This document shows, one piece after another, positions 30,925-54,500 of a DNA stretch of 64,000 nt (the stretch's first letter is position 1; each line of letters opens with the position of its first letter). The translations under genes and the position numbers were made by a program. Origin of the DNA: Apostichopus japonicus (lineage: Eukaryota; Echinodermata; Holothuroidea; Aspidochirotida; Stichopodidae); NCBI RefSeq assembly GCF_037975245.1, contig NC_092583.1, forward strand, positions 3,342,764-3,406,763, written 5' to 3'. The notes under the pieces are model-generated. The model did no database searches. It saw only the letters and a program-made list of their open reading frames with translations, and had not been told where the DNA came from.

Positions 30925-31400
30925 ATCACTGAATAATGCAGTGGAGATATTGTAATTAGGAGTTCTTATGAATATTCAAATAAGATGGCAACTGATCAAA
31001 CTAAGAGACCCAAAGATACTTTTTCACCAAATAAACATTCATTATCGAGTGTTTAATGTCACGTCCATCAACCAGATTTCATCAATGAATAATGCAGTGA
31101 GAGATATTGTAATTAGGAGTCTATGAATATTCAAATAAGATTGCAACTGATCAAACTAAGAGACCCAAAGATACTTTTTCACCAAATAAACATTCATTAT
31201 CGAGTGTTTAATATGTCACGTCCATCATACAGATTTCATCACTGAATAATGCAGTGGGAGATATTGTAATTAGGAGTCTATGAATATTCAAATATGATTG
31301 CAACTGATCAAACTAAGAGACCCAAAGATACTCTTTTTCACCAAATAAACATTCAGTATCGAGTGTATAATGATGTCACGTCCATCATACAGATTTCATC
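30925..31400. repeat. 156-157 bp tandem repeat, three copies
   Basis: GAATAATGCAGTG starts copies at 30931, 31087 and 31244. Each copy continues with GAGATATTGTAATTAGGAG, ACTAAGAGACCCAAAGATAC and TCGAGTGT...CACGTCCATCA, ending in AGATTTCATC. Copies are nearly identical, with small indels, implying recent duplication. Confidence 0.95.
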
Positions 31401-39640: not shown

Positions 39641-42600
39641 CTAGGTGAGTAACTCGTTCACGTAGTCAAACAGCCGATCATCCGTCTGGTCCTTTGGGAA
39701 TTTCTTGGCGAGGGAATCCTGGTGTATTCGAAATGAGATGATAAAAACGCCTTAAGAGAGGGAAGTGAGTCTACTTTTGTCATCATTCTTCGTACAGGAG
39801 CAGCTAACTGAACGACTCCCTTATGTGATGCACAGCTCTTCCTCACCTCCCCTTGCCCCTCCCCCAACCCCCCTGCCCCTCCCCCAACCTTCCTGCCCCA
39901 CCCCCAACCATCAGTCAAGGAGTACCAGATCAAACCATTCTGATTAACCTATGTGACAGAAAGGCCTATGTCAAACAGCTTGATGATATTTCAAAGCACG
40001 ATCAAACCTTAGGAAAATATTCCTAAAATTTTACACAGTTTCCAAAAAAACAGAATTTTATACAATAATTATCACCACCATCGAATGTCCAAACAAAGTT
40101 TCTTTGTAAGCTCCTTCAAGTGTTTATTACATGAAAAAAAACCAAACAGCAACATACCTTCAGTTTTGACAGGAATGTTTCTTCTGAGTGCCAATTTTCT
40201 TGAAAATAAACCATATCCGGAGTATTTCTATAAAACTCCACCAGCGATTTCTGCAACAGAAAACAAAGAAAGCCAATGATTTAATTAGCAGAAAATGCAT
40301 TCGATCTTCAGTATTGGTGGGAACGGGGTACACCAGAACCCTGGGGACCGTCTGGAAAAATTTACTACCCGATCCAAGCCGCTACTAAATGGTCCAGAAA
40401 TTTGTCTGAGATCAGTGTCATCATTACCCATTTTCAGTTACATTCTTAAGAGATGGAAGGGAGGAACAAAGTCACGTTTATTCTTCCGTAATTTCATCAT
40501 TCTGTGATATTCCCTACTATTTTGATGTGGGTCAGTCTAAAATTTGGTGAAAATTGGTTACTATTCCGAGCCGAGAAAGTTTCGATCGACTACGTGTTTT
40601 TTAACTTTTAAATGTGTATTGTATAGCCTAAGCAATCTCACTGCACTGTGTACTTGCACACTTTCAATGCAACAGAACTTGACCCTTGTTCTCTTGAGCG
40701 GCTCTTAAGTTGCCCACCCCCCCTCCCCCCCCCCCCATGTCGAATTGAGTGGAACGGTGCAAAAAAAGTTTAACAGAATTTGAACTGAATTAAATGTTCC
40801 ATTTCATTTGGTAACAAGCTAGGCCTTAACCTGTTTCGGCTTTGCGAGTAATTACTAATTAGTTAACATAACCGCGACGGTCTTACCAATTCGACAAGAA
40901 CGTCTTGCGTCAGAAACATATCTTGTTGACAGCTGTAGCTCATATTCACAGGCATCCCATAATGCTTCTCTGGATCCTATTATTTGAGAGAACCCCAAAA
41001 AAAAGGGAAATTATTTTTACAATTCAGAATCAAATGGCGGATTTCTTTGTTTGAAATTTTTCATTCCTTGATAGTTTAACAAATCTGGTTACTTAAACAT
41101 AAAATTTTTAAATTTTGCTTTTTAAATTTTTTTTATCCATTTCCCTTTCCCCACAATTCCAGATGTGTAATATCACATTGGGTTAGCAGCATACTATTAA
41201 TCTGTGAGACTTGCCCTTTTGAGAGATTTATCGCTCAAATGCATATATCATTTTCCATTTTCCATTTTGTCACTGAATTTTTAGCGTCATACTTGTCCAT
41301 TGACTACCATCGCAGACACTGTGACACTCATATTAAAAAGGAAAAAACAATTCCACACCGTCAGTTGAAAAACCCCATCTCACTTTCTTGTTCCTAACTC
41401 CATCTACGGTGGATAGAATGTAACCTATTTTGACTGTAGGTGGTGATCTGTGATATCATAAATATTCATGAAAAGATTTTACTTTCTCAATAGAATTGTC
41501 TGTTCCATTTATCCTTGAAACTTGATACTTTTGGCATTTTGACTTAGCTGTCAAGGATCTCTGAATTAAGAATTTTATCAAAATTCAACTGTATGGTTGA
41601 AATATTATTTGCCTCTGTGAAGTTATGAGTGAAATATACACCTACTAGGAATCATGGAATTTTGTCCATAACCTCTTAATAACTGGTAAACATTTACATC
41701 ACGTTTGAGGGGCACAAAATGTTAATCCTTGAACAACGTAACCTGTAAGTTTCCAAAACCAAATGGCTTAAAATAATGACATAGCTCTGTTAGATAGCGA
41801 GGTATCCAATTATGTGTGAACTGAAAAAGGTTTTGTCAATAAAATATGGAAAATTACAAAACAACACAAAAAAACGCAATTTTACAAGAATAATTGAACT
41901 ATAAACAAACCGTGACTTCTGGAGAAGGCATTACCCAGAACGACCTCATGGTCGATTCTTTGACAGCACGCTGTAAGTTATAAGGATCTGTATGGAGACG
42001 AAGAAAAGTGTTCAAATAGATATTTAGTTAGAAGCTGACGTACATCAAAATTCTCAAGCAAACTGCATAATGGAATGACATCACTGGTTATATATATAAT
42101 GCACAAAATGTGCAACATAAGTATAACATACACAATTTGTATATCGACTACATGTTAATAACAAGCAATTGCCTTTTGATGTATTTCCCTTATACTAGAC
42201 ACAGTGCAGATCAACGATACATGCAATTCAGCTACATATAGCAATATTGGCAAGAAACGGCTGGTATGTTTGTCAAATATATCATAAACTACACATGAAG
42301 CAGATATGGAATACACACAATTTGGACACATTCTGCATAAAATGGCACGATACGGCTGGTATGTATGAACACATTTCATATAATACCTACACAATACAAA
42401 TATCTAATACACACAATCTGGATACAAACTGCATATAATGGCAAGAAACAGCTGGTATGTATTATACATATTTCACTTAAGATATACCCACAACACAGAT
42501 ACATTATACACACAATCTGGATACATACTGCAAATAATGGCAATACATGGCTGGTATGTATTATACACATTTCACATAAGACATACACATAATACAGATA

Positions 42601-45600
42601 TATGTAAAGCCCGGGTCACATCTGCGCGATTCAACGCGCGATTCAACTCGCAATACAATTGAAGGTTGAATCGCGTGGTTACACACGGGTATCAACTTGT
42701 TGCGCAATAAAAGTTGCGCCGTCGATTTGGGTTGATTTGCAATAGAGCAATGTCCTAATCAGTGCAACTTCTCAGAAGCAACTTATAATATTAGCTGAGA
42801 ATTAAAAGTTAAGTCTAAAATGCAGAAGATAATTTTCTCATATTAATATTAGCTGCCATTTCGCAATTGTTTTCACGATCGATTCTGTAGTTGTTTGAAC
42901 AGTCGCGCGTACTATGTGACCACAAAGTTGATTTCGAAGTTGAATCGAAAATCGCGTGATTTTAGTTGCGAGTTGAATCGCGTGTTGAATCGTGCAGATG
43001 TGACCCGGGCTTAATACACACAATCTGGATACATACTGCAAATAATGGCAAGACATGGCTGGTGTGTATTATACACATTACACATAAGACATACACATAA
43101 GACATACCCTCAACACAGATAAGTATTACACATAAGCTGGATACATACTGCAAATAATGGCAAGATTTATACACATTACACATAAGACATACACATAACA
43201 CATACACATAATACATACACACAACACAGATACATAATACACACAATCTAAATACATACTGCATATAATGGCAAGACATGGCTGGTATGTATTTCCTTCT
43301 CCTTTCATGCGGACTTGATAGTCCATCTGAGAGTCGATATCTTGGATCGTGGGATGCGCCGCTGTACAGGGGTGGCTGTGGTACCAGCCTACAAGCTGTA
43401 GTCCACGGAGGGCAATAGATTGCTGAATCTGTAGGGTAAAACACAAAATTCATCTCCTTTTTTACAGCCAGAATGTCATATTTCCAAGAAAATCGTAACA
43501 ATGTTAACAAATTTTTTCCATACAATTAAGATTCTCTTTGGTTGCAAATGCAGACTACCAAGTGTGCAAACTCTTGCAAGTTCGTTATCATTTGTGGACA
43601 TCAAAGTTACTCACACATGAGGGACTTTCAAACTTGTCCTGTACTCTTATATCATATAAAAAATTTTTTTTTTAAGTCTACGTCTTGCATCGAGGCTTGT
43701 GAAAACTCTGTAGGTAACATTCTTCACCGGCAAAAGAAATATAACATCAACCAAAACATAATCTGTTAACTTTAGGTTGACACCAAACTGACAACAGGAA
43801 TCACAAAATTAATTAGAGAATTTTGTATACTGGATTCAAATGTTGTAAATCACAAACGACTGCAATGATATGGTCGGGGGGGAAATATTTGGAATAGATT
43901 TAGGTTTGAGGGGGGGAGCTGTCCAAAGACTGAATCGCAATAAGAAACGTAGCAATGATAAGCAAGGTATAGCACTAACGTCACTGTTGAATATCTTTCA
44001 GCAGCAAGGTTTGAAAGAAGAGAAACCAAACGGTTTTGGCGATGTGTAATGTATCTTACCTCTCCTTCTACTTTCTTGGCTCCTTCCTTATCTTCCAACC
44101 TACACTTACAGGGATAGGCTTGTAACACAGACATATCTGGGGAGAGAACGGATTGCAGAGGTTGGTACAAACGTCTTGGAAACAAATAACGGGTGACTTC
44201 GAATCGGGGAGATATCCAGCCATACCATTCATTTATATAATATTTTCTAGACAAATATTTCCACTGAAGTTTTGGGGAAGTTTGGGGAGGGGAGGATGGA
44301 TTGAATATGATTAGGGGTGGAAGCTGGAACTATTCTTTGGGCCCACTTCATCCTGTCAGTGGTTCCGTTAATACATTGGTCACAGTTAAACCAGTATGTT
44401 TTTAAGTTCTTCTTTCTGCAGGGCTTGACTGAATTTTTTTTTGTACCTTTACAACCACTTTCCGATGGTCATCCCTCACTTTTCAACCAAAATAATGAAT
44501 ACTACATCATTCCCTGCAAGAAGGAACAAGCAATAGGTACTAAGGGTGCATCATCTTTTCCTGTCCACTTTCATGCTGGAAAAAACAATTAAAGCACATT
44601 TCAGCAACCAAATGTATCAAATATAGCTAAATGTCCTGGCAACATAAAAAGAATACAGTTTCTTTGACTACCATGGCAACCCCAAGTTAACAGAGCTTTT
44701 ACTGAAAGCCCTGGCAACCAAACATTATTCAAAGAAATGAGTGGCCTACCATTTCAAGGGGTATTCTGGTAGCTAAAGCTGATTGATTGATAAAAATGCA
44801 ATTTTTAAATTTGTTTTCAATATATTTATAACTATTATTATTATTTTTTTTTATTGCATCTATACCTATGTAACCTTTGTATGGCAAAGATATGAATTTC
44901 TAAAATTTGGTTCAATAATGTGAATGTTTCTGGCAACGACAGAGTGATTGATGTAATCTTTGCAAATTCAATTCTAAAAAATGCTTTTTATATTTCTGTA
45001 TCATATTTAACTCACTTATTCACAGAGGAAAAATGGTATTTTTTTTGGACAAAACAGTTATATTTTGATGAAATTCTAAATACAGAGAGCCCTAACCGCT
45101 TAGCAGACATTTCCAAAATGTATTAGATCTCAAGGATAGATCAATAAGAAGATTATAACAGAAAAGTCAAGCTTTGGAAGAAGATTTGCCAGTGATGAGA
45201 TCACATACCATCTAACTGTGATCCATTCCGGGAGAAAAATCGAGGTTTAAGCCAGTTAAACGTAAGTTCCATTTCAATCAACCATTATCTTGAGTAAGGG
45301 ACGAGATGTTGAGATGGGGTTTTCAAACTTACAGAGTCGAATATTTTTCTTTATTCCATATAAATGTCACATTTTCAGCCACTGGAAAATCCCTCTAAAT
45401 GCTACAGAATTATTAATTACTTGTGCTGGGGTACATCATCTACCATAAACCAAACAAAATCTCTGGCTTTGGCAGAAAACTTACGTTGAGAGGTGGGGTC
45501 CCACTTTCCTGCTAGGTAGCCCACGACTTCACTAGTCGTTAAATGACAGTGGAAATCCTGCAAATAGGACAGAAATTAAATATTCTTTAGGCACTTGGCG

Positions 45601-51584: not shown

Positions 51585-54500
51585 ATGAAAATGACAACGA
51601 AGGGCGATATTTACAGGCTTGCTGCACTTTGTGAACAACAAGAGTTAGAGGTGATGGCATGTTTTCATTAACTGATAGGCATGTAGGCTTAGCCAAACTG
51701 AGGCCTAGCCTAAGCCTATATAGTATTAGTATTACTAGTGTTAGGCGTTAGTTACTATCAGTATCACATTTACTATTTAAGATACGTAGCGGATGATACT
51801 AGCTTAGTCTACTGGCAAGGCCTTACTAATTTTATAACGGTTGTGTAATAACAAATATTTCTACAGTAGAAATGGCAGAGGCCTAAACTGTCTATTTTAA
51901 CTTGTAAGCTACTAGTATAGTCAGTATTGCGAAGTTCGGCATACTGCGAAGTTCGGACACCCTAAGAAATACACGATTTCACCGTGGAAACCTACAGGAA
52001 GAGCCAAATTTCACCAAAAAGCACGAAGCTACAGTTATTTCTCTCCAAAATGACCCGTGTGCAAGAAATTACTAACATATTTGTCAATAAAATGACGAAG
52101 ATTTATGAAGTCTGTTATAATTACGGAAAGAGCAACTGCGCCACCAATTTTATCACCAGCGCCACACTGTGGGTTGCGTGTCCAAACTTCGCAATACTCT
52201 AGCAAAGAAATACCAGTTCCACAATCACGAAGAATCTTCTTGGAAAACAACGTGAAAACAGTTTGCAGGAAAGAAAGTTTGGCCGTGTATCGTACTATAA
52301 CACAATTCTCCCACCATATGAAGTATATTTTCTGGTGATTTATGCCAGAAGATTTAGTTTTGGGGTGTTTTTAGTCTTAAGTGTCCGAACTTCGAAGTCA
52401 CCATGCTACTAGTACCCTAGGCAAAGTAATCCTTACCAATTCATGTAGTATGCTCTGAACAAGTCTCAGTCATTGACTCATTCTTTATCATGTGTCCTGA
52501 TTACATATTAAGGTTAACTAGCCTACAGCAAAGCTATACCAATGTAAGATTAAATTGTGTGATTGTCAAAACAGTACTTCTGGACAAGTTGTGTTATTGT
52601 TATGTAGTGGTTTTTGCTGTTTGAAATTTTCAGGCACCAACTGGGATTCCGAGCCCTGACGTTTATGCAAAGCTCCTGACCATTTATCTGCTACAGAATG
52701 ACTTGTAAGTACTAAAGTAGAGTCTTAGTGTATTTCTTGAGGTATAGTTCTATAATTTCAAGTTTTCAGTGACTTATTGTAGGTAGGCAAGTTGCCTATG
52801 TTGTATGTTTTTAACCATGCATGTATGTATGTATGTATGTATGTATGTATGTATGTATGTATGTATGTATGTATGTATGTATGTATGTATGTATGTATGT
52901 ATGTATGTATGTATGTATGTATGTATGTTGTATGTATGTATGTATGTATGTATGTATGTATGTATGTATGTATGTATGTATGTATGTATGTATGTTGTAT
53001 GTATGTTGTATGTTTTTAACCTATGTTTAGCCTATGTTGTATGTTTTTAACCATGCATGTATGTATGTATGTATGTATGTATGTTGTATGTATGTATGTA
53101 TGTATGTTGTATGTATGTTGTATGTTGTATGTTTTTAACCTATGTTTAGCCTATGTTGTATGTTTTTAACCATGCATGTATGTATGTATGTATGTTGTAT
53201 GTATGTATGTATGTATGTATGTATGTATGTATGTATGTATGTATGTTGTATGTATGTTGTATGTTTTTAACCTATGTTTAGCCTATGTTGTATGTTTTTA
53301 ACCATGCATGTATGTATGTATGCATGTATGTATGTATGTATGTATGTATGTTGTATGTATGTTGTATGTTGTATGTTTTTAACCTATGTTTAGCCTATGT
53401 TGTATGTTTTTAACCATGCATGTATGTATGTATGTATGTATGTATGTATGTATGTATGTATGTATGTATGTATGTATGTTGTATGTATGTTGTATGTTTT
53501 TAACCTATGTTTAGCCTATGTTGTATGTTTTTAACCATGTATGTATGTATGTATGTATGTATGTTGTATGTATGTATGTATGTATGTATGTTGTATGTAT
53601 GTATGTATGTATGTATGTATGTATGTATGTATGTATGTATGTATGTATGTATGTATGTATGTATGTTGTATGTTTTTAACCTATGTTTAGCCTATGTTGT
53701 ATGTTTTTAACCATGCATGTATGTATGTATGTATGTATGTATGTATGTATGTATGTATGTATGTATGTATGTATGTATGTATGTATGTATGTATGTATGT
53801 ATGTTGTATGTATGTATGTATGTATGTATGTATGTATGTATGTATGTATGTATGTATGTATGTATGTATGTATGTATGTTGTATGTATGTTGTATGTTGT
53901 ATGTTTTTAACCTATGTTTAGCCTATGTTGTATGTTTTTAACCATGCATGTATGTATGTATGTATGTTGTATGTATGTATGTATGTATGTTGTATGTATG
54001 TTGTATGTTGTATGTTTTTAACCTATGTTTAGCCTATGTTGTATGTTTTTAACCATGCATGTATGTATGTATGTATGTATGTTGTATGTATGTATGTATG
54101 TATGTATGTATGTATGTATGTATGTATGTATGTATGTTGTATGTATGTTGTATGTTTTTAACCTATGTTTAGCCTATGTTGTATGTTTTTAACCATGCAT
54201 GTATGTATGTATGCATGTATGTATGTATGTATGTATGTTGTATGTATGTTGTATGTTGTATGTTTTTAACCTATGTTTAGCCTATGTTGTATGTTTTTAA
54301 CCATGCATGTATGTATGCATGTATGTATGTATGTATGTATGTATGTATGTATGTTGTATGTATGTTGTATGTTGTATGTTTTTAACCTATGTTTAGCCTA
54401 TGTTGTATGTTTTTAACCATGCATGTATGTATGTAACTACTGGATGAGTGCTAATATCTTCTTCCAGTTTCAATTGTATGCATCAACACAAACCCAATTG

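Follow-up and report, generated by a model that had tools for sequence, protein, structure and literature searches.

Why does an intron of the MPND gene in the holothurian Apostichopus japonicus open with copy after copy of the exon end that precedes it? The gene lies on the minus strand of a stretch of 64,000 nucleotides of contig NC_092583.1, termed here the window (C23:3342764-3406763 in a genome of 671,581,487 bases in 35 contigs), and all positions given below are those of the window. Behind the exon that bears the JAMM motif, its final 31 coding bases recur six more times in tandem, together with the 5' splice site (donor) and a stretch of intron bases. We consider it likely that this array is a locus-specific minisatellite, which arose by tandem duplication across the exon-intron boundary, is mostly neutral and leaves splicing to the exon-proximal donor.

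Six tandem copies of an exon end and its donor

The JAMM exon (43428-43260) terminates in QPCLAIIC and one further base (phase 1), a run of which human MPND presumably has a similar version (QPCLALLC-S-P). The repeat derives from the final 31 coding bases (43290-43260), which together with the adjoining GTATGT form the reference exon end of 37 bases (43290-43254). The exon copy is termed U0, and the intronic units are numbered U1 to U6 from near to far (a slash marks the splice boundary here and below):

43260 to 43428, minus strand: JAMM exon of MPND, 169 nt, with the HSHP...D motif, phase 0 to phase 1.
43254 to 43259, minus strand: U0 donor GTATGT, presumably the genuine 5' splice site; GCA/GTATGT, the phase 1 of which fits the acceptor at 41987.
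43068 to 43166, minus strand: U1; about 15 of the first coding bases lost, donor GTATGT kept at 43148.
42560 to 43067, minus strand: U2; encodes NTHQPCLAIIC, donor GTATGT at 43036, split by an insert at 42608-43011.
42461 to 42559, minus strand: U3; encodes NTYQPCIAIIC, donor GTATGT at 42528.
42365 to 42460, minus strand: U4; encodes NTYQLFLAIIC, donor GTTTGT at 42429.
42270 to 42364, minus strand: U5; encodes HTYQPYRAILC, donor lost (GAATGT).
42183 to 42269, minus strand: U6; the last and most diverged copy, donor lost.

In the register of the exon end the copies start at 43179, 43067, 42559, 42460, 42364 and 42269, and all six units keep this one register as well as the order of exon part, donor and intron part. 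Without gaps, U1 to U6 differ from the reference at 13, 2, 2, 4, 5 and 13 of 37 positions, and the alignments trace the 13 mismatches of U1 to a deletion of about 15 nt and the 13 of U6 to an indel of 1 nt. Elsewhere in the window the minimum on both strands is 14 of 37 mismatches, and the place that reaches it (42405) lies inside the array. In local alignments of the full reference, every copy outscores all shuffled versions, 2,000 of the query and 2,000 of the target; when the query is cut down to the coding bases, 1 of 2,000 shuffles matches the score of U1, and none of 2,000 does so for U2 to U6.

The repetition is specific to this exon end. For thirteen other MPND exon ends (6 donors and 7 acceptors), every place on both strands of the window shows at least 14 of 37 mismatches, in a control that did not extend to the 44136 exon's donor, to the beginning of the first RAMA exon or to any MPND exons not located. 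A 187-base piece of the array matched four places in the genome, all of them within the array, in a single search that skipped simple and very common words and scored the best candidates alone.

A preliminary description of this locus had proposed about six units of exon end and donor behind the genuine exon end, which should resemble it better than shuffled sequence does; the copy number, the common register and the shuffles bear this out. The dimensions had to be revised in part. The coding part is present in the unit, but it measures 31 bases instead of about 25, and the intron part, taken as the unit length minus the coding part and with the donor included, runs to 56-93 bases instead of 70-85. 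The unit length is about 99 bp, and each unit is TG-rich and simple in its distal part. The range originally assigned to the array, 42247..43268, includes a transposon-like insert of 404 bp (42608-43011) that is not part of the array.

The MPND gene

The RAMA part of the gene matches the MPND structure PDB 7ydt with an E-value of 6e-30, a Pfam RAMA match lies in the gene, and the catalytic exons, once joined, hit Pfam JAB (E 4e-9). By these matches the gene is identified as MPND, which encodes a histone-binding, deubiquitinase-like protein; 7ydt is a solved structure of MPND (PMC9963953). A first PDB search returned nine weak matches, eight of them JAMM proteins (Rpn11-like or BRCC36) and the ninth an unrelated chain, and Pfam gave no match at E 0.01 for the 10 open reading frames examined out of the 35 of at least 90 codons in the window. 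A 56-residue query from the JAMM exon found the MPND locus and one distant place in the species' own genome, and MPND therefore appears to be single-copy. The distant place (L014), on contig C2, is a second JAMM-like one, with 43% identity over 37 residues.

The exon ends of the gene are placed by phase and splice motifs. The array is followed by this exon:

41911 to 41987, minus strand: next MPND exon, NPYNLQRAVKESTMRSFWVMPSPEVT including the carried-over base; acceptor CCATACAG; donor ACG/GTTTGT.

The U0 donor joins the acceptor at 41987 in phase, and the joined frame is open and reads QPCLAIICNPYNLQRAVKESTMRSFWVMPSPEVT; the next exon closes in phase at ACG/GTTTGT. As placed by phase, this donor of the exon after the array (window 41910, minus strand) is an unusual one.

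Donors and reading frame of the units

Each unit had been regarded in the preliminary description as a potential decoy donor, which holds for part of the array. U0 to U3 have the identical 11-mer GCA/GTATGTAT, and on scoring, three of the six downstream copies (U1 to U3) keep the exact donor. U4 carries GTTTGT, the donor form used by the next MPND exon, and may still be functional, but in U5 and U6 the GT is missing from the corresponding position.

From U0, splicing at a downstream copy would extend the exon by 111 nt (U1), 223 nt (U2), 731 nt (U3) or 830 nt (U4). Among these repeated donors U1 alone is in frame without a stop, and the extensions to U2, U3 and U4 hit a stop codon after ...SMYPAYV. 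Nine GT sites, U0 and U1 included, lie in frame before the first in-frame stop (43128-43126). Two further donor-like motifs were observed in the units. AGG/GTATGTCT at 43107 (minus strand) sits in the intron part of U1, and splicing there would take in the in-frame stop at 43128-43126; ATT/GTGTGTAT, which scores 3.96 bits, occurs in five units (43244, 43021, 42513, 42414 and 42318, all minus strand).

Growth and decay of the array

Counted over whole units, the differences from the exon copy amount to 12/98, 9/98, 11/98, 17/96, 23/94 and 23/86 for U1 to U6. Divergence had been said to grow with distance from the exon, and it does rise overall (Spearman's rho 0.83, exact one-sided p 0.029, six points), but not strictly. 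The coding changes in the intronic copies are mixed and several of them alter amino acids, as expected of unselected copies. Among 16 informative columns of the unit alignment, two group U1 to U3, two group U5 with U6 and one groups U4 to U6. That the array originated through a tandem duplication spanning the exon-intron boundary, as proposed, has good support; stepwise growth fits the divergence gradient, but only these 5 of 16 columns back it. On this pattern, the distal copies are probably older and the proximal ones younger.

A short direct repeat marks the two ends of the array:

43287 to 43296, minus strand: GGAAATACAT in the exon, at the unit boundary; a possible duplication breakpoint, identical to 42188-42179.
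42179 to 42188, minus strand: GGAAATACAT in the intron, at the start point of a would-be seventh copy.

It is plausible that this direct repeat represents the duplication breakpoint. The array may then have arisen through a tandem duplication, probably between two GGAAATACAT repeats, one in the ancestral exon end and the other in the intron about 90 bp away, and the duplicated stretch would have comprised the last 31 coding bases, the donor and about 60 intron bases. More unequal exchange or slippage would have led to the six extra copies, of which the younger ones probably lie nearer the exon. The exon copy would remain under coding and splicing constraint, and the intronic copies would decay. 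Splicing would normally take place at the exon-proximal donor (U0, possibly 43244), so that the array is spliced out along with the intron and stays mostly neutral. If U1 were chosen now and then, the protein would gain 37 residues in frame; U2, U3 or U4 would bring in a stop codon.

A transposon-like insert in the second copy

The insert that splits U2 is bounded by terminal inverted repeats (TIRs) and a target-site duplication (TSD):

42608 to 43011, no strand assigned: TIR element with no recognised gene, 404 bp; TSD TAA at 42605-42607 and 43012-43014.

The TIRs are 47 bp long and match at 96% (measured on 42607-43012). In seven of the eight element copies examined (L001-L008) the same TAA or TTA stands on both sides, and L002 is mismatched. 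A genome search in which 40 of 187 candidates were scored found 39 places besides this locus at E 1e-78 or better, and by these matches the insert is a member of a dispersed TIR element family. Eleven of the 39 other places extend beyond query position 585 and 28 stop there; in 26 of the latter, a second match sets in from about position 753 on, a few bases further along. This pattern suggests a shorter form of the element without its middle.

PIF/Harbinger-like elements are recognised by TIRs and a 3-bp TSD of TAA or TTA. The insert has both and is labelled here a PIF/Harbinger-like miniature inverted-repeat transposable element, a label that follows from this TSD rule, no transposase having been sought. 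The corresponding site in the other array units is without an insert, and the element therefore arrived after the array.

Arguments against a mostly neutral array

Several observations weigh against the account of a neutral minisatellite spliced out from its exon-proximal donor. With regard to growth, 11 of the 16 informative columns give other or mixed groupings instead of the growth order, U1 diverges slightly more than U2 and U3, and the supports in the unit tree are low (0.07 to 0.78). The breakpoint-homology score is reached by 20 of 3,000 shuffles and by 12 of 253 control windows; it is statistically weak, and the breakpoint is therefore plausible, not proven.

With regard to neutrality, pairwise differences among the decoys amount to 57/395 in the coding part versus 237/822 in the intron part (permutation p 0.0034), and the lower coding divergence is not simply what is expected of neutral copies. 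Divergence is graded along the unit, with 0.144 in the coding part, 0.214 (77/360) in the donor and proximal intron and 0.317 (175/552) in the distal intron. The gap may come from the distal part, which is TG-rich, of low complexity and hard to align with certainty. Selection on the decoys, or conversion from the exon, might also contribute; since the split of the intron part reveals a graded trend, we do not claim selection.

With regard to the donor, bit scores were taken from a donor matrix, and pairing with U1 small nuclear RNA (snRNA) served as a second measure. U0 is the weakest of the seven MPND donors scored by both, with 3.2 bits versus 3.38 to 9.62 and -3.7 versus -4.7 to -8.0 kcal/mol. 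Eight of 123 intronic GT sites outscore U0, the best of them being the site at 43107 described above (7.3 bits). The ATT/GTGTGTAT site at 43244, 15 nt further than U0, is in frame and scores slightly above it, and it is the only one of the nine in-frame sites before the stop to do so; its pairing with U1 snRNA is weaker than that of U0 (-2.9 versus -3.7). From phase and splice motif we infer that U0 is the donor in use and that 43244 is a possible alternative. Since U0 is weak and has this in-frame neighbour, it is the presumed rather than the certain true donor. How the array originated does not depend on which of the two is used.

Is the array in use?

The array might instead serve as a set of alternative donors. 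The U1 form would gain 37 residues, the U2 and U3 forms with their stop codons would be degraded, and array length would tune the output of MPND. The donor itself cannot distinguish U0 to U3, the 11-mer being identical, and the weakness of U0, the open in-frame extension to U1 and the stops reached by U2 to U4 are in line with such a role. Precedents come from human genes: one repeat unit is retained in some ABCA7 transcripts (PMC5954066), and in IFI6 two of the repeat units further downstream serve as donors (PMC4526556). However, an open stretch of 111 nt is common (1,239 of 5,000 shuffles of the same composition), three of the six donors have changed, and there is no sign of selection keeping the decoy donors, the positions of which differ in 15 of 90 pairwise cells versus 57 of 395 in the coding part. 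On balance, we regard use of the array as unlikely.

A further possibility arises from the sequence of the exon end itself, as the repeated TTGCCATTATATGCAG/TATGT also resembles a 3' splice site. By an acceptor matrix the AGs of U0 to U5 fall between the 93rd and 98th percentile of 470 other intronic AGs, and the seven MPND acceptors between percentiles 64 and 99. The acceptor scores are 5.05 for U1 and U2, 4.26 for U3, 2.79 for U0 and U4 and 3.6 for U5, and U1, U2 and U3 have an ATA to ATT change in common. In U0 to U4 a single G belongs to both the acceptor AG and the donor, and the two cut points are one base from each other. Sites that can act as acceptor or donor are termed dual-specificity splice sites; the literature matches listed make no mention of them. 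The array could thus be a run of such sites (TTGCAG/ as acceptor, A/GTATGT as donor), the units of which would be splicable as mini-introns or pseudo-exons, with U1 in frame. We hold this to be quite improbable.

Tandem repeats are a usual place for assembly errors, and a false expansion at the exon end is conceivable. Against this, the copies differ from the exon copy by 9-27%, and one of them holds an element of a dispersed family with its own TSD, in a genome assembled into 35 contigs; an artefact is rejected as very improbable. That an independent low-complexity intron repeat resembles the exon end by chance or convergence, as the simple TG-rich distal part might suggest, is scarcely credible and is refuted by the alignments and shuffles, in which the coding part of U2 to U6 alone beats all 2000 shuffles and the best place outside the copies reaches 14/37 mismatches.

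Other repeats in the window

Two further repeats were observed. At 30925-31400 a 157-bp tandem unit occurs three times (94% matches), and at 52817-54379 lies a degenerate ATGT array of about 1.5 kb, with a 111-bp period within.

Relation to known repeats at exon boundaries

The IFI6 minisatellite is reportedly the subject of a study by Turri, Cuin and Porter (1995), and one by Zhuo (2007) reportedly bears on intron gain by tandem duplication. The closest counterparts of the MPND array are repeats of human genes. The variable number tandem repeat in intron 18 of ABCA7 is likewise a tandem array at an exon donor; its 25-bp unit starts from the exon-18 donor, whose genuine GT supplies the first two bases of the repeat, and one unit is retained in RNA (PMC5954066). 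In contrast to MPND, with a unit of about 99 bp, 31 coding bases and six extra copies in one assembly, ABCA7 as described there repeats no coding bases and is polymorphic, with 12 to about 427 units. The minisatellite of IFI6 (6-16, G1P3) resembles the MPND array in that its units bear extra splice donors (PMC4526556); donor use is reported there, whereas the downstream donors of MPND are candidates.

Tandem repeats that cross exon-intron boundaries and are able to alter splicing also account for 27 intron modifications in human duplicated genes (PMC2812944). The repeats of that survey have units of about 30 bp on average and RNA support in recent primate paralogues, whereas MPND is apparently a single-copy gene. 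Finally, as in intron gain by tandem duplication (PMC4974935 and PMC3443670), the repeated unit in MPND carries acceptor-like beside donor-like sequence. In those systems duplication makes a new intron, whereas in MPND an existing intron has been lengthened.

The MPND array crosses the donor of a coding exon, as placed by phase, with its copies in register and with donors in downstream units. By these features it is of the same kind of donor-spanning repeat as those of ABCA7 and IFI6. This kind is already known from human genes, and the general surprise is modest, but MPND shows it with unusual clarity. The MPND case is set apart by the long unit with 31 coding bases and the visible series of decay.

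What the array offers

Seven versions of a coding exon end and its donor stand side by side in a conserved, apparently single-copy gene. Four identical, weak 11-base donors face one acceptor, which amounts to a natural experiment on the choice that the spliceosome makes among equal donors. If the units were indeed dual-specificity splice sites, the array would be a living intermediate in intron or exon birth, and its older copies would record earlier states of the exon (e.g., CCG TTT versus CCA TGT). The MPND array also represents a natural test of whether repeats at exon boundaries feed alternative splicing or intron gain.

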